The notes below the pieces were generated by a model. That model saw only the letters and a program-made list of their open reading frames with translations, had not been told where the DNA came from and ran no database searches. From an archaeon (GTDB lineage: Archaea; Nanobdellota; Nanobdellia; SCGC-AAA011-G17; ARS1178): DNA of 37,062 nucleotides. The stretch is from the NCBI GenBank assembly GCA_002688325.1, contig NZCS01000025.1, positions 1 through 37,062 of the forward strand. Direction: 5' to 3'. The position numbers and the translations under genes were made by a program. Below are positions 1-28,939 of this stretch, in pieces; within the stretch, counting starts at the first letter, position 1; every line of letters begins with the position of its first letter.

Positions 1-306
1 AAAAATAAAAATTAAGGATGAAATTAGGAAGTTAAAATTTTTAGTTGTTAGGAAAGATAAAAATAAAGATAAACCTAAGTAAAATTGAATGTTGAAAATT
101 AATAAATATCCTATAACAAAACTTAAGATCATGTAATAGTTAAAGTTTAAAGTTAGTAAAGATAAGATTAGGATTAATAAAACTGCTTTTTCTGCGAAAA
201 ATAAAGCTTTTTTGTATTGTTTTGGTTCTTTTTTTGAAATTTTTTTAAGAATTAATCCTAATGGTATAGCTGATAAGATAATAATTACTTGTAATATTTC
301 TAGCAT
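1..306 (-). CDS. Hydrophobic membrane protein, C-terminus off the left edge
   Basis: An open frame of 102 codons runs from an ATG at 306 off the left edge without a stop. The product begins MLEILQVIIILSAIPLG, has a basic stretch (KKISKKEPKQYKK), and then continues as long aliphatic segments. This gives at least three likely transmembrane helices. The start is 31 bases beyond the stop of the synthase gene on the same strand (337-1464), so the two are probably co-transcribed with this gene second. I recognise no family. The frame is open and the hydrophobic pattern is regular, so I believe it is a real gene; its function is unknown. Confidence 0.6.
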   Translation of the reverse strand, partial: MLEILQVIIILSAIPLGLILKKISKKEPKQYKKALFFAEKAVLLILILSLLTLNFNYYMILSFVIGYLLIFNIQFYLGLSLFLSFLTTKNFNFLISSLIFIF

Positions 307-336
307 GATTATAGTAAGTAAAAGATGTATAAAAGG

Positions 337-1464
337 TTATTGATTGTATAATTTTAGTAAATCTTCTTTTGTGATTAATTTTTTTTCTTGTCCTAGTTCT
401 CTTATTCTAACAGTTAATTCTTTTATTTTATTTTTATCTGGATTTTTTATACCTAATTTTTTTAAATTTATTAAAATAGTAGCAGTTCCAGATTGTTTTC
501 CTAAAGCATATTCTTGTTCTTTACCAAATCTTTCTGCTTTTAGTTTAGTTTTGTATAGATCTCCTTTTTTGTCTCCATCTGCGTGAATTCCTGCTGTTTG
601 TTGATGAACATTTTCACCTATTATAGGATGGTTTTTTGGAATATCTATTTTTGAAGAATCTTCTATTAATTTACTTAATTGGTAAAATTGATCTTCTTTA
701 AGTTTAAAATCTATATTAAGAAAATCTTTTGCTACTGTTGTTATAGAAAATAAATCACAATTTCCTGTTCGTTCTCCTAAAGAATTTATAGTTACATGAA
801 TCCCATTAATATTTGTTTTTAGGGCTTGTAATGTGTTTGCAGTTGCTAAATTATAATCATTATGGGCATGGTAATCAAAATGAGTATTTGGAAATTTAGT
901 TATTATTTCTTTTAGTAAATCATATGTTTGGTCTGGTGATAGAATTCCTAAGGTATCTGGAAGCATGATTCTTTTTATTGGTAATTTTGTTAAATTTTCT
1001 ATTAATTCAAAAACATATTCTTTTGATTGTATCATACCTGAAGACCAATCTTCTAAATAAATATTTGATTGGATGTTTTTAGATAAAGCGTAATTAACTA
1101 TTTCTTTTATATCAGTTAAATGTTCTTGTAATGTTTTTTTTAATTGTAATTCACAATGTTTTTTAGAACCCTTTGCAAGTAAATTAACTGTTTTACAATT
1201 AGTTTCGGAAATCCAATCAATGCTTTTTTTGTTGATAAATCCTAAAACTTCTATATTTTCTAATTTGTTTATTGATTTTGCGTATTGTGTAATTAATTTA
1301 ACTGCTTTTTTATCTTCGTCAACAGCTAAAGAAGAAGCCACTTCTAATCTTGGAATACCTATTGAGAATAATTCTTTTACAATTTTTAATTTTTCTTCTG
1401 AATTAAATGAGATATTTGGAGTTTGTTCCCCATCTCTTAAGGTTGTGTCTAGGATTTCTATCAT
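337..1464 (-). CDS. 2-isopropylmalate/homocitrate/citramalate synthase-like enzyme (HMGL family)
   Basis: This is a 375-residue enzyme of the pyruvate-carboxyltransferase-like (HMGL) TIM-barrel family, which condenses acetyl-CoA with a 2-oxoacid. The opening ILDTTLRDGEQTPN is the family metal/substrate signature. HAHNDYNLATAN carries the two metal-binding histidines, and GERTGNCDL and QTAGIHADG are later conserved loops. The length ends shortly after the barrel plus a short tail, so the C-terminal LeuA leucine-binding regulatory domain is missing, as in homocitrate and citramalate-type enzymes. I chose the ATG at 1464 because the family always begins with the strand before DTTLRDGE; a longer frame upstream adds an unrelated hydrophobic stretch and runs into the divergent gene at 1541. 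Substrate choice cannot be read from sequence, and no other leucine or lysine pathway gene is nearby. Confidence 0.85.
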   Translation of the reverse strand: MIEILDTTLRDGEQTPNISFNSEEKLKIVKELFSIGIPRLEVASSLAVDEDKKAVKLITQYAKSINKLENIEVLGFINKKSIDWISETNCKTVNLLAKGSKKHCELQLKKTLQEHLTDIKEIVNYALSKNIQSNIYLEDWSSGMIQSKEYVFELIENLTKLPIKRIMLPDTLGILSPDQTYDLLKEIITKFPNTHFDYHAHNDYNLATANTLQALKTNINGIHVTINSLGERTGNCDLFSITTVAKDFLNIDFKLKEDQFYQLSKLIEDSSKIDIPKNHPIIGENVHQQTAGIHADGDKKGDLYKTKLKAERFGKEQEYALGKQSGTATILINLKKLGIKNPDKNKIKELTVRIRELGQEKKLITKEDLLKLYNQ

Positions 1465-2287: not shown

Positions 2288-2332
2288 TAGAAACATTTAT
2301 ATAGAATAAAAGAGAGTTGTATAGTGATTAAA

Positions 2333-3022
2333 ATGAGTAAATATATAGATCCTTTGGGACCAGAATACGTTGGAGAATTAGATGAAGAAGAGATTCATGT
2401 TCTGGAAACAGATGAAAAAGCTAAATTATTAGTTGGAAGACTTTTACATGAAAGAGAAAAAGCTATAGAAACTGGTTTAAGGTTTGCTAGAGAAAGAATG
2501 GATTTAGCTGGAAAATTAGAAGAAGATAAATTGGGTTTACGAAATGAAAGATCTATTACTCCTTTGTTAGAAGGTTTTGTTAATTTATATGGTTCTGTAG
2601 ATTTAGAAAATAATAAAAGAGAATCTGAAGAAAATTTGGTATATTTTGTAATTGATCTAGAAGGTTTTGGAGAAGTAAATAAGAAATATGGTGAAGCTGT
2701 AGGAGATTATTTATTAAAAGAATTTGGTGAAAGACTTGAAGAACATCTAGGAAGAACTTCTGATGTTGTTTGTCGTACTCATGGTGATACTTGGGAAGGT
2801 GGAATGTTTAGTATAAGTAAAGAAAAATCATTGGCTCATTTAGAGAGTTTATCTGAAAATGAAGATTTTGTTGTTTCATTGAATATGGGAGAAAGAATAA
2901 TTGAAGTACCAATAACATATCATGTTGGTGTTGCTGAATTTAAAAAAGGAGATTCTGTTGAATTATTAAGAGAAAAAGCAGGAGAAAATTTAATTGAAAG
3001 GAGAAAAGAAAATGGAAGATGA
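2333..3022 (+). CDS. Degenerate GGDEF-like nucleotide-cyclase-fold protein
   Basis: This 229-residue protein has an acidic, helical N-terminal half (1-95) and a C-terminal domain that follows the GGDEF pattern. That pattern comprises VIDLEGFGEVNKKYGEAVGD (metal-binding Asp, helix, GD), then RTHGDTW where active diguanylate cyclases have R-x-GGDEF, then HVGVAEF where the family has an S-I-G-I-A strand. The catalytic/metal Glu of GGDEF is Thr here and one Gly is His, so cyclase activity is doubtful; it may bind a nucleotide or be structural. I prefer ATG 2333 over GTG 2324 because a TATA-like ATTTATATAG near 2295-2304 puts a leaderless start there. Its stop overlaps the next gene by 11 bases, suggesting coupled translation. 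Confidence 0.6.
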   Translation: MSKYIDPLGPEYVGELDEEEIHVLETDEKAKLLVGRLLHEREKAIETGLRFARERMDLAGKLEEDKLGLRNERSITPLLEGFVNLYGSVDLENNKRESEENLVYFVIDLEGFGEVNKKYGEAVGDYLLKEFGERLEEHLGRTSDVVCRTHGDTWEGGMFSISKEKSLAHLESLSENEDFVVSLNMGERIIEVPITYHVGVAEFKKGDSVELLREKAGENLIERRKENGR

Positions 3023-3290
3023 TGGTGGATATAGATGTGGGAAAGATGAAAGAGTAACTGGTAGTAAATTAGTTGTTTATGGTGAATTTTTGAGAACTAA
3101 AGAAATGCCTGAAGAATATGTAAATTTTCTAAATGAATTTGGAAAAGATGAAAATAGTATTGATAGAACTTTATTAGATCATATTGAAGATTGTGAAAGT
3201 TGTTTTAATTCTTTAACTGATACTGTTGGAATAGATTTAGCTTTAAGAGTAATTAGAACTAAAGATAAAGAAAGTTGGACAGTTAATTAA
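3012..3290 (+). CDS. Small acidic protein with an HxxxCxxC zinc-binding-like motif
   Basis: This 92-residue acidic protein is translationally coupled to the GGDEF-like gene: its ATG lies 11 bases before that gene's stop, after a GGAG ribosome-binding site near 3000. Near the C-terminus it carries LLDHIEDCESC, an H-x3-C-x2-C arrangement also used by zinc-binding anti-sigma-type domains. The N-terminus has one further Cys (GGYRCGKDE). Archaea have no sigma factors, so the resemblance says only that a metal or partner may be bound. Its 3' end overlaps the convergent methyltransferase by 8 bases. I do not recognise a named family; the link with the GGDEF-like protein is inferred from overlap. Confidence 0.55.
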   Translation: MEDDGGYRCGKDERVTGSKLVVYGEFLRTKEMPEEYVNFLNEFGKDENSIDRTLLDHIEDCESCFNSLTDTVGIDLALRVIRTKDKESWTVN

Positions 3291-6888: not shown

Positions 6889-7722
6889 ATGAAAAATATA
6901 GGTGGACAAGCAATTATAGATGGAGTTTTGATTAGAAATAAAAATAAAATTGGAATTGCAACTGTTAAAGAAGGTAAAATAAAAACAGTTTTGTGGAAGT
7001 TAAAAGAAAAACCTAAATTTTTAAAATTAATTTTTATAAGAGGGATTTATAATTTAATTGAAACTTTAGTAGTTGGAATAAGAGCTTTGAATTATTCTGC
7101 GGATGAACAATTGGAGAAAGAAGAAAAGTTTAGTATATGGGGTTTGATTTTAACTTTAGTTGTTTCTTTAGGTATAGGGGTTTTAATTTTTAAGTTTTTT
7201 CCGTTGTTTGTTACTGAAATGTTAAATAAAAGTTTAGGATTTTTAGGGAATAGTGTTTGGTTTAGTTTGATTGAAGGTATTTTAAAATTAGTAATATTTG
7301 TTTTGTATGTATTATTAATATCTAGAATGAAAGATGTAAGAAGAATATTTGAATTTCATGGTGCTGAACATAAGGTTGTTAATAGTTATGAGAAGAATGA
7401 TTTAGAAAATTATAAAAAGTATGATGTTAAACATGAAAGATGTGGTAGTGCTTTTGTGTTTTTAGTATTATTTTTGAGTGTTGTAGTTTATAGTTTTATT
7501 AGTGTTGAATTAAGTTTGTTTGAAAAGTTAGGTTATAGGTTGTTATTGTTATTTCCAATTGTAAGTTTGAGTTATGAGGTTTTAAAGTTTAATAGTAAAC
7601 ATCCTAATTTTGTTAGTAGAATATTAATTTATCCTGGTTTGTTGTTGCAGAAGTTAACTGTTAGAGAACCTAGTGAGGAACAGATAAAAGTTGCTAAGAA
7701 AGCTTTGGAATTGGTTGTTTAA
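6889..7722 (+). CDS. DUF1385 (YqhQ-like) membrane protein
   Basis: This 277-residue protein begins with the DUF1385 signature IGGQAIIDGVLIRNKNKIGIA. It has a two-helix region (about 84-158) and the conserved block FEFHGAEHKVVNSYE (about residues 157-171). That block is followed by HERCGSAFVF, whose His, Glu and Cys look like metal ligands. The family is called a predicted metal-dependent enzyme in bacteria, but its reaction is not established. It starts immediately after the RNase HII stop and its end overlaps the convergent gene by 4 bases. Confidence 0.85.
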   Translation: MKNIGGQAIIDGVLIRNKNKIGIATVKEGKIKTVLWKLKEKPKFLKLIFIRGIYNLIETLVVGIRALNYSADEQLEKEEKFSIWGLILTLVVSLGIGVLIFKFFPLFVTEMLNKSLGFLGNSVWFSLIEGILKLVIFVLYVLLISRMKDVRRIFEFHGAEHKVVNSYEKNDLENYKKYDVKHERCGSAFVFLVLFLSVVVYSFISVELSLFEKLGYRLLLLFPIVSLSYEVLKFNSKHPNFVSRILIYPGLLLQKLTVREPSEEQIKVAKKALELVV

Positions 7723-8168
7723 TCATCGTAAATAAACATTGTATTTTCTGGATCGGTTACTATTCCTCCTACACAACTCTCTATACTAAATATTAATCTA
7801 ACTCCTTTAGCGTGTGCGTGAAGATGTTTTGTTCTTCTTATTCTTTCTAATTCAAGTAAAGCTAATGAATTGATATAACAATGATCTATTAAAGCAATTC
7901 TTGTTTCGACATTTCTTGATCCTGGAAAAAAATTTCCATCTTCAACTAAAAAGTAATTACCAGAAATTTGATGTTTTCTAACTAAATCTAAAAATTCATC
8001 AAAAATTATTGGTGGTTCTTCGATTTCTGCATGAGAATCTATGCAATCTTTTAATTTATCAAAATTATAATTAGTAGGAATAAGTCTTAGGTTCATAATT
8101 GGTGGTTTTAAATAAGATTCAAATCTTGATCCTAATAATTCTTCAAAATCTCTTGGATAACCACTCAT
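7719..8168 (-). CDS. Unrecognised 149-residue soluble protein
   Basis: The product has no hydrophobic segment, one CID and one ESCVGG cysteine, and a histidine-containing helix KHLHAHAKGVRLIF near residue 115. The N-terminus MSGYPRDFEELLGSRFESYL looks like a genuine folded start. Codon use resembles the neighbours, and the 4-base tail overlap with the DUF1385 gene is typical of this compact genome. I do not recognise a family and propose no function. Confidence 0.6.
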   Translation of the reverse strand: MSGYPRDFEELLGSRFESYLKPPIMNLRLIPTNYNFDKLKDCIDSHAEIEEPPIIFDEFLDLVRKHQISGNYFLVEDGNFFPGSRNVETRIALIDHCYINSLALLELERIRRTKHLHAHAKGVRLIFSIESCVGGIVTDPENTMFIYDD

Positions 8169-16763: not shown

Positions 16764-17042
16764 ATGGTTGTAAGTGAAGAAAGAAGATTAGAATTACTTG
16801 TTAGAGCTTCTAAAGAAGATGTAAGAAAAGGAAGAGTTTATGGAAGAAGAGAAGTTGGAAGTGGTTCTTATGATCTTGATCAGACTCCTTTTGAACCGGA
16901 TGTTGGGTCTACTTTAAGACATCAAGATTGGGGTTCTTTATCATATAAATTAGCTATTTTACATAATAAATGGCATGGGTTAAATGTAAGAATTCCAGAA
17001 GGGTATAAAAAGCCCAAAAAAAAGGATAAAAGAAAATCTTAA
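16764..17042 (+). CDS. Unrecognised basic 92-residue protein
   Basis: This soluble protein has an arginine/glutamate-rich N-terminal helix (EERRLELLVRASKEDVRKGR), a central QTPFEPDVGSTLRHQDWGS region and a strongly basic end (KKPKKKDKRKS). Such a tail suggests nucleic-acid binding or simple disorder. It lies between two antitoxin-like genes, 47 bases after the AbrB protein. I recognise no family. Confidence 0.5.
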   Translation: MVVSEERRLELLVRASKEDVRKGRVYGRREVGSGSYDLDQTPFEPDVGSTLRHQDWGSLSYKLAILHNKWHGLNVRIPEGYKKPKKKDKRKS

Positions 17043-17433: not shown

Positions 17434-18090
17434 TTAAAACCCTTTTAATCTTAAAATTTGATTTATTTCATCTGAAGATATAGCACAACCTCTTAATCTT
17501 AAACCCCATAATAATCCATCTAAGAAATCTTTTTTCTTACCTTTAGGAATAAACTCTTTGAATAAACCTTTTTCAAATGCAATAGTCATTAGTTCTGTAC
17601 TTCTTATTATTTTTGTGTTTTCTGTTAGTTTTTTAAATTCATTTAGGTTTTTAACATCTATATGGATTTTAGAATGTAATTTTTTCTCTAATAATTCTTT
17701 TAATTTCATTGGATTTTCTATAAGCATTCTTGTTGTTCTTTCATCAATTACACTTATGTTGTTGTTTTGCATTGAAATTGCTTCTATTTCTCCTTCATGA
17801 ACTATTCTAATTTTTTTTCTTTTGTTAATGTAAATAGAATTAGCTAAATTCATTAAATAATTTATTTTTTCTTTTTTTATTGTTAATACTTTATCTTCTA
17901 GTAAATCTTGAATTATTAGAGCTTCTAATTTGTATTTTTTTCCTTTTATTGGATTATCTATAAGTTCTTTTTTTACAGAAGAAGGTATGATAAAATCTCC
18001 CTTGAATTGTTTTTTTAATTCTCTTAATATATTTAATAAGTTGTTTGTTGCTATACTAATAATACTACTTGAATCAAAAATTAGGTTCAT
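17434..18090 (-). CDS. PIN-domain ribonuclease-like protein
   Basis: This 218-residue protein starts with the PIN strand NLIFDSSSIISIA (first acidic ligand). It has a conserved Glu in VKKELIDN, then HEGEIEAISM (central Glu) and ISVIDERTTRMLIE (C-terminal Asp), giving a full metal site. The C-terminal extension, IPKGKKKDFLDGLLWGLRLRGCAISSDEINQILR, is helical. The start overlaps the stop of the upstream gene by 4 bases, so the pair is co-translated. PIN proteins in such pairs are usually RNases controlled by the partner. Confidence 0.8.
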   Translation of the reverse strand: MNLIFDSSSIISIATNNLLNILRELKKQFKGDFIIPSSVKKELIDNPIKGKKYKLEALIIQDLLEDKVLTIKKEKINYLMNLANSIYINKRKKIRIVHEGEIEAISMQNNNISVIDERTTRMLIENPMKLKELLEKKLHSKIHIDVKNLNEFKKLTENTKIIRSTELMTIAFEKGLFKEFIPKGKKKDFLDGLLWGLRLRGCAISSDEINQILRLKGF

Positions 18091-18653
18091 TTGAATAAAC
18101 TCCTTGTTAATTCTAATCTTTTTTGGATATCTTTTGTTTTTGATAAAGGAACATCTGATATTCCTGTTCTACCTGTGTAATCTTGTAAATCCCATTGTGA
18201 GATATGTAATAATTTAGATGTAGTTCCTGCTGATAAACCATGTTCATATAATCTAGAAGCTTTTGAAATTTTTCCTTTGTCTATTATTTCTTTTATGTAT
18301 TTTTTTAGGTTAGAGTCTAGTTTTTGTGAAATAAAGAATATGTTATGGATGTTTTTGTGGTAATTTTTGAATTTGTTGTTTTTTAGATTTTTGTAGGCTT
18401 GTTTTAGGTTAAATTGAACTTGGTTGTTGAATTTGTCATAGTCTTTGTATTCTTGGTATTTGGTTCTTTCATATATTTTAGATAGAGAATAGATTAAAAC
18501 AGCCATTTCTATTGCTTCTTGATCTTGAAATGTAGTAGAGTCGTGAATTGTTTGATTAGATAAATCTTTTAGTTTTTTAATATTATGTTGTTTAATAGCT
18601 ATAGAAGATTGTTTTATAATTCTTAGTATGTTGTTCTTTATTCTATCTATCAA
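18087..18653 (-). CDS. Helical protein with C-terminal HTH-like segment, partner of the PIN protein
   Basis: This 188-residue, mostly helical and basic protein ends in SKASRLYEHGLSAGTTSKLL followed by HISQWDLQDYTGRTGISD. That looks like a short helix-turn-helix unit of a type commonly seen next to PIN genes in archaea. The N-terminal part (about 1-130) resembles a helical bundle of conserved-hypothetical type. It overlaps the PIN gene by 4 bases and is transcribed first, the order expected for an antitoxin. The function is inferred from pairing. Confidence 0.6.
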   Translation of the reverse strand: MIDRIKNNILRIIKQSSIAIKQHNIKKLKDLSNQTIHDSTTFQDQEAIEMAVLIYSLSKIYERTKYQEYKDYDKFNNQVQFNLKQAYKNLKNNKFKNYHKNIHNIFFISQKLDSNLKKYIKEIIDKGKISKASRLYEHGLSAGTTSKLLHISQWDLQDYTGRTGISDVPLSKTKDIQKRLELTRSLFK

Positions 18654-20249: not shown

Positions 20250-20456
20250 TTATTTAAGTAATATTATTATTGCTAAAAATAAATGAGTAATGGCAAAGAT
20301 AGTTGCTAGATCTAAGGTTAATCTATGATGTTGTTTTAGAAAAGTTGAAAATGGTTTTAATCTTGTTGCCCAATGGATATTACAAGAAGGAATATGTAAT
20401 AAGATAAATAAACCTGCAATGATTGATGTGTAGAATTGAATTTGTTCTATAGTCAT
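20250..20456 (-). CDS. Two-helix membrane protein with R-L-K-x9-H-x13-H motif (candidate mini-cytochrome b)
   Basis: This 68-residue protein has helix 1 about 7-21, a loop HIPSCNIHWATRLKPFS, and helix 2 about 45-67. R32-L33-K34, H44 and H58 have exactly the same spacing as R35-L36-K37, H47 and H61 in the protein at 22708, and both have a Ser-Cys before them. H-x13-H on one helix is the spacing that carries two b hemes in cytochrome b. Its ATG overlaps the stop of the rubredoxin-TPP enzyme by 4 bases, so it probably receives that enzyme's electrons or anchors it. Heme binding is inference. Confidence 0.65.
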   Translation of the reverse strand: MTIEQIQFYTSIIAGLFILLHIPSCNIHWATRLKPFSTFLKQHHRLTLDLATIFAITHLFLAIIILLK

Positions 20457-22210
20457 ACTTTTTTTACTCCTCTAATCATTTTGTTTGGGTCAATCATGAT
20501 TTCTACTATTGTTGGTTTTTTTGATTGGAATGCTTTTTTTAAGATATTATTTAAGTTTTTAGGATTGATAACTCTGTAACCATCTCCACCACAAGATTTT
20601 GCAAATTCAGCAAAGTTTGGATTTGGAAATGAAACTCCAAATTCTGGATAACCATCTCTTATTTGTTCTTTTTTTATGTTTTTTAATTTTTCATCATTGA
20701 ATAGAATAACTTTTATTGGTAATTTTTCTCTAACTGCTGTTGTAAAATCTGCCATTAACATTCCAAAGCCACCATCTCCAGTTATACATATTACTTGTTT
20801 ATTTGGAAAATCTAATTGTGCTGATAGAGAAGCGGGAAGGGAGAATGCCATGCTTGCCATATTAGCTGACATGAATGTTTTTTGTCCTTCACAAATAAAT
20901 TTTTTGTAAAACCAAAAAGTATGATCTCCTACATCTACACAGATAATAGCATTTTTGTTAATATTATTTTTTAATGCTTGAATAACAAATCCTGGATTTA
21001 TTGGTGTTGAGAAATCTTTTGATTCTTTTTCAATTTCATTTAGATGTTCTTGTTTGTATTTGTTAATATTTTCAATGAATTTTTTATTTTCTTGTTTGTT
21101 AGATATTAAAGGTACTAATTTTTGTAATATTAAATCAGAATCCCCTAGTAATCCTGCGTCAACATTAAATGTTTTTCCTATTTTTAATGAATCATTATCT
21201 ATCTGAATTATTTTCATATTTGGAGGTACTAGATTAGCTTGTCTAAAACCAGAACCAATTATAATAATTAAATCAGAATCTGCAATAGATTTAGCTGCAT
21301 ATATTGATCCAATTGATCCTAAAACTCCTAAAGAATATTTGTATGTTTCATTGATAACTCCTTTTGCTCTTGAAGTTGTTGCTATTGGTGCTTTTAATTT
21401 TTGAGATAATTGTAATAATAATTTAGAAGAGTGTCTTGCTCCCCATCCTGCTAAAATTGTAATTTTATTGGAATTATTGATTAATTGTGCTGCTTTTTTG
21501 ATATTTTTGTTTGAAAATGTAGGATTTTGAAATATTTCTGGTTTGAATATTTTTTCTGGAAGATTTTCTGTAAGAATATCTGTTGGAGTACTTAGGACTG
21601 AAACTCCTGGTTTTTTATAAGCATTTTTAATTGCTGTTTTTGTTAATTTTAATGCTTGATTTGGTTTTGAAATAGTTTCTGCAAATTCTGTAAATGATTG
21701 AAATAGTTCTATTTGATCAATTTCTTGAAATGCTTCACTTCCTAAGTAAATTTCTGGTATTTGTCCTGCTAGGGCTAGAACTGGAGATCTATCTGTTGCT
21801 GCATCTACTAATCCTGTTATTAAATTAGTTGAACCTGGGCCTGCTATAGAAATACAAACTCCTAATGAATCTGTTATTTTTCCATGAGCTGAAGCCATAA
21901 AAGCTGCTGTTTCTTCATGTCTTGTTAAGATAAATTTGATTTTACTTCTTCTGATTGCATCTATTATAGGAAGATTAGATTCTCCTGGAATTCCATAAAT
22001 ATGTTTTACATTGAAAGCTTCTAGTTGTTTTACTATTTTATCTGCTACGTTTGTTGAGGTTTTTTGAGTAATTTTTGATAGTGGAACAAATGCTGATTTT
22101 GGTGCCCCACATACTGGACAAATATAAGAATCAGGTAATGAAGAAAATTTCTTTTTTTGTTTTGATTCATCATAAACCCAGTTACAGACAGTACATCTAA
22201 ATTTAGTCAT
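20453..22210 (-). CDS. Rubredoxin fused to a TPP-dependent enzyme (pyruvate oxidase/acetolactate synthase family)
   Basis: This 585-residue protein begins with a rubredoxin domain holding one iron through C6-x2-C9 and C31-x2-C34 (YICPVCGAPKSAF). A full thiamine-diphosphate enzyme follows from residue 55: IPGESNLPIID, the catalytic-type Glu in RHEETAAFMA (E99), GPGSTNLITGL, a central domain with ILAGWGARHSSK, and the C-terminal TPP site ITGDGGFGML with N in LFNDEKL. It resembles pyruvate oxidase and acetolactate synthase; which reaction it does is unclear. The rubredoxin implies one-electron transfer out of the active site, fitting a pyruvate:acceptor oxidase. It overlaps the two-helix membrane gene by 4 bases. 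Confidence 0.85.
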   Translation of the reverse strand: MTKFRCTVCNWVYDESKQKKKFSSLPDSYICPVCGAPKSAFVPLSKITQKTSTNVADKIVKQLEAFNVKHIYGIPGESNLPIIDAIRRSKIKFILTRHEETAAFMASAHGKITDSLGVCISIAGPGSTNLITGLVDAATDRSPVLALAGQIPEIYLGSEAFQEIDQIELFQSFTEFAETISKPNQALKLTKTAIKNAYKKPGVSVLSTPTDILTENLPEKIFKPEIFQNPTFSNKNIKKAAQLINNSNKITILAGWGARHSSKLLLQLSQKLKAPIATTSRAKGVINETYKYSLGVLGSIGSIYAAKSIADSDLIIIIGSGFRQANLVPPNMKIIQIDNDSLKIGKTFNVDAGLLGDSDLILQKLVPLISNKQENKKFIENINKYKQEHLNEIEKESKDFSTPINPGFVIQALKNNINKNAIICVDVGDHTFWFYKKFICEGQKTFMSANMASMAFSLPASLSAQLDFPNKQVICITGDGGFGMLMADFTTAVREKLPIKVILFNDEKLKNIKKEQIRDGYPEFGVSFPNPNFAEFAKSCGGDGYRVINPKNLNNILKKAFQSKKPTIVEIMIDPNKMIRGVKKV

Positions 22211-26255: not shown

Positions 26256-26627
26256 TTAACCATAAATGTTTAATTGTTCTCCAGGCTTAGCATATGGTAT
26301 ACCCTCCATTCTAAAACCTTTTTCAACTACTTTCATTCCTTTTTGTGTTATTTCTTCTAATGCTTCTGGTGTAGCTGGAATAAATCCCTTACAATTACCC
26401 ATAGCTAATCTTCTCTTAATAAATGTTGTTCTGTCTTCAGAAAATTCTCTAATTCTTTCTGGCGTTGTGGTTTGAGAACTTCCTCCTATTGTTAATGAAT
26501 AACTATGTTCATTACCTACAACATGTACGTCTTTTCTTTCATCTCCAAACATAACATGCAATAATGATTGCATTGTAAGTGCTGCTACTCTATATACTTC
26601 TTCTAAATCTTCTTGTCCTTTTAACAT
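26256..26627 (-). CDS. Unrecognised 123-residue soluble protein
   Basis: This protein has an N-terminal helical segment (QEDLEEVYRVAALTMQSLLHVM), a strand region VHVVGNEHSYSLTIGG and a C-terminal part with FIPATPEALEEITQKGMKVVEKGF. There is no membrane helix and a single Cys. It stands alone between a dehydrogenase and the divergent aminotransferase, with a GGAGAAC ribosome-binding site at 26632-26638. I recognise no family. Confidence 0.6.
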   Translation of the reverse strand: MLKGQEDLEEVYRVAALTMQSLLHVMFGDERKDVHVVGNEHSYSLTIGGSSQTTTPERIREFSEDRTTFIKRRLAMGNCKGFIPATPEALEEITQKGMKVVEKGFRMEGIPYAKPGEQLNIYG

Positions 26628-27917: not shown

Positions 27918-28939
27918 ATGTTATTAGAAAGATTAATAGAAGCAAAAGGGGTTAGTGGTAATGAACATGAGGTTAGGAGTTTAATTCTTAGAGAAATTAA
28001 AAAATATGTTAAAAAAGTTAAAATAGATAAATTTGGGAATATAATTGCGAGTAAAGAAGGTAAGGGAAGTAGGGTGATGTTGGTTGCTCATATGGATGAA
28101 GTTGGTTTGATGATTAAAAGTATTAATGATAAAGGTGGGATATTGTGTTCTAGTATTGGTGGTGTTAAACCTATTTCATTAATAGGACAGAAAATTGGTA
28201 TTAATACTAAAAAAGGAAGATTTATGGTGTTATTAGTACTTCTTTGATTAGTGATGGAGAAGAAGTTGAAAAAATTCCTGAGATGAAAAATTTAATTTTA
28301 GATACTGGATTAACGAAAAAAGAATTGAAACAAAGAAAAGTTGAGATTGGAACTTTTTTAGAATTAGAAGATGATATGAGTTATTTGGGATGTAAGGATG
28401 TTATAGCTGGAAAAGCTTTGGATGATAGGGTTGGTTGTTATATATTGTTGGAATTAGCTAGAAGATTGAAAAATAGTAAAGCAAGTATAGATTTTGTTTT
28501 TACAGTTCAAGAAGAAATTGGATTGTATGGTTCTAAAACTTCTATTTATGAAATTGAACCTGATTGGGCTTTAGCTGTTGATGTTACAAGTGCTGATGAT
28601 TCTGAAAGACATTATCATGAGACTACAAAACAATTAGGTAATGGTCCTTGTATTACTGTTAAGGATTCGAAGATGATATCTAATGTTTGCATTGATAGTT
28701 GGTTAAAAGAGATAGCTAAGAAGAAGAAAATTCCTTTTCAATTAGACATAAGTGAAACTGGAACTACAGATGCATTAAGTATTTCTATGGCAAAAGGTGG
28801 GATTCCTACTGCCGTTGTTGGTGTTGCTGTTAGAAATTTACATACTGGTTTTGGGATTGCTAATTTGAAGGATATAGAGAATTGTGTGAAGTTGTTAGTT
28901 GGTTTGTTAAGAAATCCTCCTAAGAAGTGTATTGTTTAA
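27918..28939 (+). pseudogene. M42-family aminopeptidase with a one-base frameshift
   Basis: Two adjoining frames make one M42 metallo-aminopeptidase. The first (27918-28247) carries LLERLIEAKGVSGNEHEVR and LVAHMDEVGLMIKSI (first metal ligands). The second frame supplies ISTSLISDGEEVEKIP, KALDDRVGCYILLELARRL (bridging Asp), FVFTVQEEIGLYGSK (catalytic Glu pair), ALAVDVTSADD and the C-terminal His in VRNLHTGFGI. The shift falls at 28221-28224 (GGAAGATTTATGG): one more T would give RFYGVISTS in frame. All active-site residues survive across the two parts. Either a recent lesion, a sequencing error in a T run, or translational slippage explains it. Confidence 0.85.

Follow-up and report, generated by a model that had tools for sequence, protein, structure and literature searches.

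A degenerate GGDEF protein and an overlapping HxxxCxxC orphan gene in an archaeon of the class Nanobdellia

PleD and TM1788 are diguanylate cyclases of the GGDEF family (PF00990), and the active site of PleD is described in PMC7288161. In PleD, the Mg2+ is bound by E370, D327, and the main chain of I328, and the guanine by D344 and N335, while E370, K442, and R446 bind the phosphates through their side chains. Active diguanylate cyclases are recognized by the signature GG(D/E)EF, in which E370 is the metal-binding acid at the third position. The glutamate at position 4 also coordinates a metal ion according to PMC7374567, which is in some tension with PMC7288161, where E370 is the only residue of the motif to be named. 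In VCA0965, the change from AGDEF to AGDAF abolished activity, and a histidine at the first position was tolerated and left the enzyme active, with the warning that variants of the first signature residue may be active (PMC3974145).

Degenerate members of the family are already a known kind. The degenerate GGDEF domain of Caulobacter CC3396 binds GTP as a sensor, its target being an EAL domain of the same polypeptide (PMC7288161). PelD, a membrane protein that regulates exopolysaccharide, is a degenerate GGDEF receptor of c-di-GMP, which combines a preserved RxxD I-site with a broken active site.

Other GGDEF proteins are controlled by a metal-binding domain or by a partner protein. In DgcZ, a zinc-binding domain controls its GGDEF domain. 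The partner SiaC binds the stalk of SiaD, a protein composed of a stalk and a GGDEF domain, and controls it (PMC8457831), and the iron-binding IsmP inhibits the cyclase ImcA (PMC10904736). The archaeal record of the family has grown from the single GGDEF protein known in the 2018 census (PMC5847659) to more than 300 hits in 2021, many of them in the DPANN and Asgard groups (PMC8646023). Searches of the open-access PMC literature found no study of the gene described here, or of an archaeal GGDEF protein with a zinc partner, and, beyond these two papers, no study of the GGDEF proteins of its lineage.

The locus lies in a stretch of 37,062 nucleotides, referred to here as the window, from an archaeal genome of 606,505 bases in 36 contigs, which is 72.17% complete. 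Among the genomes used for comparison, it is the only one of its family. The features discussed below are as follows.

2295..2304, forward strand: ATTTATATAG, a TATA-box-like stretch 29–38 nt upstream of the gene 1 ATG, read in the sequence.
2333–3022, forward strand: gene 1, 229 amino acids, with a predicted helical stalk (residues 27–60) and a degenerate GGDEF domain (residues ~61–229).
2654..2656, forward strand: D108 of gene 1, equivalent to the metal ligand D327 of PleD; D in all 76 aligned ORFs that have a residue at this position.
2753..2764, forward strand: RTSD (residues 141–144 of gene 1), the RxxD I-site motif; its R is shared by 65 of the 75 aligned ORFs that have a residue in that column, and its D by 68 of 74.
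2780..2794, forward strand: HGDTW (residues 150–154 of gene 1), which replaces GG(D/E)EF, from the alignment of GGDEF ORFs and phmmer.
3000–3003, forward strand: GGAG, Shine-Dalgarno-like, inside gene 1 and 8 nt upstream of the gene 2 ATG, read in the sequence.
3012–3290, forward strand: gene 2, a 92-amino-acid orphan with a low-confidence, mostly helical model and a possible Cys-His-Cys-Cys metal site.
3180..3203, forward strand: HIEDCESC (residues 57–64 of gene 2), an HxxxCxxC motif (H57, C61, C64).

Both genes are confirmed as real and coding. Gene 1 runs from an ATG at 2333 (or a GTG at 2324) to a TGA at 3020–3022, and its annotated frame carries a codon signal of 0.72 bits per codon (z 10.0 against shuffles). 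Gene 2 runs from an ATG at 3012 to a stop ending at 3290, overlaps gene 1 by 11 nt, and carries 0.67 bits per codon in its annotated frame (z 5.7, or 5.5 when the overlap is left out), the signal in the other frames of both genes being at most 0.007 bits per codon. The TATA-box-like stretch is presumably the promoter, by analogy with archaeal promoters in general. By eye, we take the neighboring genes to encode elongation factors 1-alpha and 2, D-aminoacyl-tRNA deacylase, and ribosomal protein S10; these, along with the small size of the genome, point to a member of the DPANN archaea.

Elsewhere in the window, a thiamine-pyrophosphate enzyme (20453–22210, reverse strand) has a rubredoxin domain (PF00301, E 4.1e-9) fused at its front. 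An M42 peptidase is split between two forward-strand frames (27918–28247 and 28244–28939, covering profile positions 1–66 and then 78–292), which reflects either a frameshift or an assembly error. Five small or mid-size ORFs have no Pfam match up to E 0.01, four on the reverse strand (7719–8168, 26256–26627, 17434–18090, and 18087–18653) and one on the forward strand (16764–17042).

Gene 1 matches PF00990 with an E-value of 7e-14 (52.3 bits, where the curated cut-off is 23.8) over residues 96–229, numbered from the GTG at 2324, and TIGR00254 of NCBIfam with an E-value of 2.7e-12. A phmmer search of the PDB returned 40 sequences up to E 10, headed by a T. maritima GGDEF domain (4.8e-8), and on these searches the assignment of gene 1 to the GGDEF family is far beyond chance. 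The AlphaFold2 model, built with an alignment of 53 GGDEF pieces, has a mean pLDDT of 84.3, with values above 90 over most of residues 101–229, and a long helix at residues 27–60. As this alignment was chosen for GGDEF, the model is not independent of the family call, for which the sequence searches provide the independent evidence. The model aligns with PleD (VIA-align) at Z 20.5, with an rmsd of 2.0 over 156 residues (61..229 of the model to 288..446 of PleD), and, judging from their titles, we take all of the 50 Foldseek matches listed to be GGDEF proteins, with SiaD among the closest structures. No receiver or other sensor domain was recognized in gene 1.

An earlier note on this DNA had read the motifs VIDLEGFGEVNKKYG, GD, R-x-x-G-D (RTHGD in the sequence), and GVAEF as the pattern of a degenerate GGDEF protein. 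All four are present, and the profile matches, the Foldseek result, and the alignment with PleD uphold the assignment and the fold; a structure of another kind, which that note had named as the outcome that would count against it, did not appear. The proposed comparison with the class III nucleotide cyclases, of which we take the DLEGF and GD motifs of gene 1 to be reminiscent, led nowhere, given that PF00990 is the only Pfam match up to E 10. In the light of both the searches and the model, gene 1 belongs to the GGDEF family as a genuine, though degenerate, member.

When single residues are matched through the aligned ranges and the alignment columns, which is how this numbering is inferred, the PleD residues D327, N335, D344, E370, K442, and R446 correspond to D108, N116, D125, D152, K225, and R229, the last of these being the final residue of gene 1, and all of the ligands named for the Mg2+, guanine, and phosphates in PMC7288161 are kept. 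The I-site has the spacing RTSD-VVCRT-HGDTW, with RxxD five residues ahead of the signature. The domain shares with PleD and TM1788 the fold, the metal, guanine, and phosphate ligands, and the RxxD motif, and differs from them in having HGDTW where they have GG(D/E)EF. To judge from these residues, it looks able to bind GTP-Mg2+, and the motif of the I-site is unbroken.

The signature was compared in an alignment of 78 distinct ORFs from GGDEF loci, including that of the window. At position 4, where gene 1 has T153, 73 of the aligned ORFs have a residue, which is E in 70 cases, Q in two (one gene present in two loci), and T only in the window. At position 1, G is found in 68 ORFs, H in three (the window, L009, and L022), and D in two. 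In a second alignment, 10 of the 16 nearly invariant GGDEF columns are altered in gene 1, although most of its other rows (51, viral) were collected by the pattern RxGG[ED]EF, a selection that in itself makes the signature columns uniform. Gene 1 is also changed at the equivalents of H121, D117, S197, D217, and Y221, and by alignment the changes affect the hairpin of the signature as well as a number of positions in the framework.

Variant signatures occur elsewhere in the same order (L009, L022, L084, L086, L087, L088, and L092), in the form of HGEEF or HGEEL, GADEF with inserted residues, and DGDQF, all of which keep the acid at position 3.

The earlier note held that the catalytic glutamate had become a threonine, and that the cyclase chemistry had been lost. 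The threonine is indeed at position 4, but the metal-binding acid described for PleD is that of position 3, which is kept as D152. With this acid and the guanine and phosphate residues in place, nothing points to a loss of nucleotide binding, and a loss of catalysis is likely, which is as far as the second claim can be followed, given the retention of the PleD ligand equivalents and the RxxD I-site.

The reading preferred here is that gene 1 is a nucleotide-binding GGDEF switch, probably without cyclization, a proposition that we consider evenly balanced. The protein would retain its nucleotide and Mg2+ pocket, having lost the signature glutamate needed for diguanylate cyclase activity, and would bind either GTP at the former catalytic site or c-di-GMP at the I-site (RxxD). 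Binding would alter the arrangement of the dimer or the stalk, and this rearrangement would be relayed through a protein contact, for which the product of gene 2, probably translated together with gene 1, would be a guess. A precedent for the GTP form of the switch is CC3396, which has the same combination of broken signature and preserved pocket (PMC7288161), but which has an EAL domain to act on, whereas none was found in gene 1 or its genome. The I-site form is paralleled by PelD, although no source of c-di-GMP, such as another GGDEF protein, was found in the window genome (72% complete), which would leave an I-site receptor without its ligand.

At E ≤1e-3, relatives of gene 1 occur in 63 of the 378 genomes of the class, its own included, and the 29 loci that were read comprise 26 with GG(D/E)EF, one with GGEEI, and two with HGEE(F/L). 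The best matches share no more than ~30% identity with gene 1, and most of them have a canonical signature. The data examined contain no close homologue of gene 1, so selection on its kept residues is not measurable, which counts against the switch reading, as do the 10 altered columns of the second alignment. Searches of viral contigs with each gene found no relative, a contig scan with gene 1 returned two bacterial GGDEF proteins (28–29%), tblastn against plasmids gave 15 records, all below 60% identity, and PADLOC gave no match.

Gene 2 is an orphan. Searches of Pfam and NCBIfam (up to E 10), the PDB (up to 10), and PADLOC (up to 0.1) gave no match, and its PHROGs matches all have E-values of at least 0.1. 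Its single-sequence model is helical and uninformative (pLDDT 48.6). In the order, 13 other genomes gave hits at E 0.009–0.1, and in the class, four others at 6.6e-4 to 0.009, but these tblastn candidates are short stretches, mostly within larger frames, and were taken as chance on inspection. HxxxCxxC is itself present in three of the candidates (L037 and L041 by tblastn, and L098 by a regular expression run on the locus). No convincing relative of gene 2 was found in the 103 genomes of the order or the 378 of the class.

The Cys and His residues of gene 2 are C9, H57, C61, and C64, which may form a metal site. Given that HxxxCxxC occurs twice in the six-frame open stretches of at least 60 codons in the window, the motif alone is weak evidence. 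The description of this motif as anti-sigma-like holds as far as HxxxCxxC is concerned, which gene 2 has in common with the zinc anti-sigma factors RslA and RsrA; sigma-70 factors are not known from archaea. In RslA, however, where the zinc ligands are His25, His50, Cys54, and Cys57 (PMC2877774), the fourth ligand is 25 residues before the motif histidine, whereas the only other Cys or His of gene 2, C9, is 48 residues before it. Lacking this spacing and any match to the family profile, gene 2 was rejected as a zinc anti-sigma factor.

The two genes had been presented as a coupled signaling pair, which rests on an overlap that is real, but ordinary in this genome region: 8 of 26 same-strand neighbors overlap in the window, among 46 ORFs picked by a simple length rule. 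The 11-nt overlap consequently supports co-translation, and hardly supports a shared function. When other GGDEF loci were searched for an ORF with HxxxCxxC, no longer than 200 amino acids and starting from −60 to +100 of the GGDEF stop, none of 89 distinct ORFs had such a neighbor (80 had at least 400 nt downstream; the window was left aside, as were two bacterial loci and the sets for viruses and HD_5). A signaling pair is possible, and comparison does not support it.

The strongest rival to the switch reading, although still on the unlikely side, is that the genes are chance neighbors in a compact genome, gene 1 being a cyclase in decay and gene 2 an unrelated orphan. The uniqueness of the threonine signature, the lack of conservation of the pair, and the frequency of overlaps all agree with this, but decay would not favor the intact frame, the strong codon bias, and the retention of every named ligand residue in gene 1.

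Less probable again is a still-active cyclase, in which the Thr-Trp change is compensated elsewhere, and whose product is a cyclic nucleotide, either c-di-GMP or a different one. In its favor, gene 1 has the two metal acids and every GTP-ligand side chain named for PleD, and the first-position histidine is compatible with activity in VCA0965 (PMC3974145). The near-uniformity of position 4, the inactivity of AGDAF, and the five further altered positions speak against it.

Similarly doubtful is a sensor pair, in which the gene 2 product is a zinc binder that acts as a gate on gene 1 via its helical stalk, in the manner of SiaC and SiaD or of DgcZ. The overlap, the GGAG that resembles a ribosome-binding site, the coding status of gene 2 with its one histidine and three cysteines, the SiaC and IsmP precedents, and the likeness of the gene 1 model to SiaD are all consistent with it. 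Against this stand the ordinary nature of the overlaps, the absence of a comparable neighbor at the other GGDEF ORFs, the want of a convincing gene 2 relative in the class, and the uninformative gene 2 model; SiaD and DgcZ, moreover, are active cyclases, and none of the searches placed gene 2 in a family.

The family, which the earlier note had called rare in archaea, is not rare in this lineage. In counts that may include some genomes with bacterial contamination, GGDEF domains are found in 45 of the 103 genomes of the order (22 of the 47 of high quality) and in 112 of 328 genomes of the class, in line with the 2021 total, EAL domains in none of the 103 genomes of the order and in 2 of 378 in the class, and PilZ in none of the 103. 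Gene 1 is the only GGDEF protein found in its own genome, in which, at 72% completeness, no match to EAL, PilZ, or HD_5 was obtained. HD_5 was considered as an alternative hydrolase and set aside: subject to the same possible contamination, it lies above the cut-off in 16 of the 103 genomes of the order, 5 of which have GGDEF, and no link between the two is visible.

Some genomes of the order encode HD-GYP-like proteins (L181–L187), in which the HD domain is accompanied by HHE and by either DGSGY or DGTGYP; HD together with the HHE/GxGY pattern is present in 7 of the 8 HD_5 loci examined.

The earlier interpretation, taken as a whole, is partly supported, and gene 1 is a modest find in an interesting place. 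In a lineage with common GGDEF domains and no EAL or PilZ found in its order, it could, as quite a long shot, be a ligand-gated switch or a cyclase with a novel active site that is read by its zinc partner, which, if true, would represent a module of the c-di-GMP family without the classical proteins of turnover or reception. The significance of the locus is that of a pointer to a class in which GGDEF is widespread and EAL nearly absent, with PilZ not found in the order, and the missing EAL and PilZ partners raise the question of what the products, ligands, and targets of the archaeal GGDEF proteins are. Among the GGDEF proteins of this lineage, gene 1 may offer a naturally occurring test case, either negative or limited to binding.
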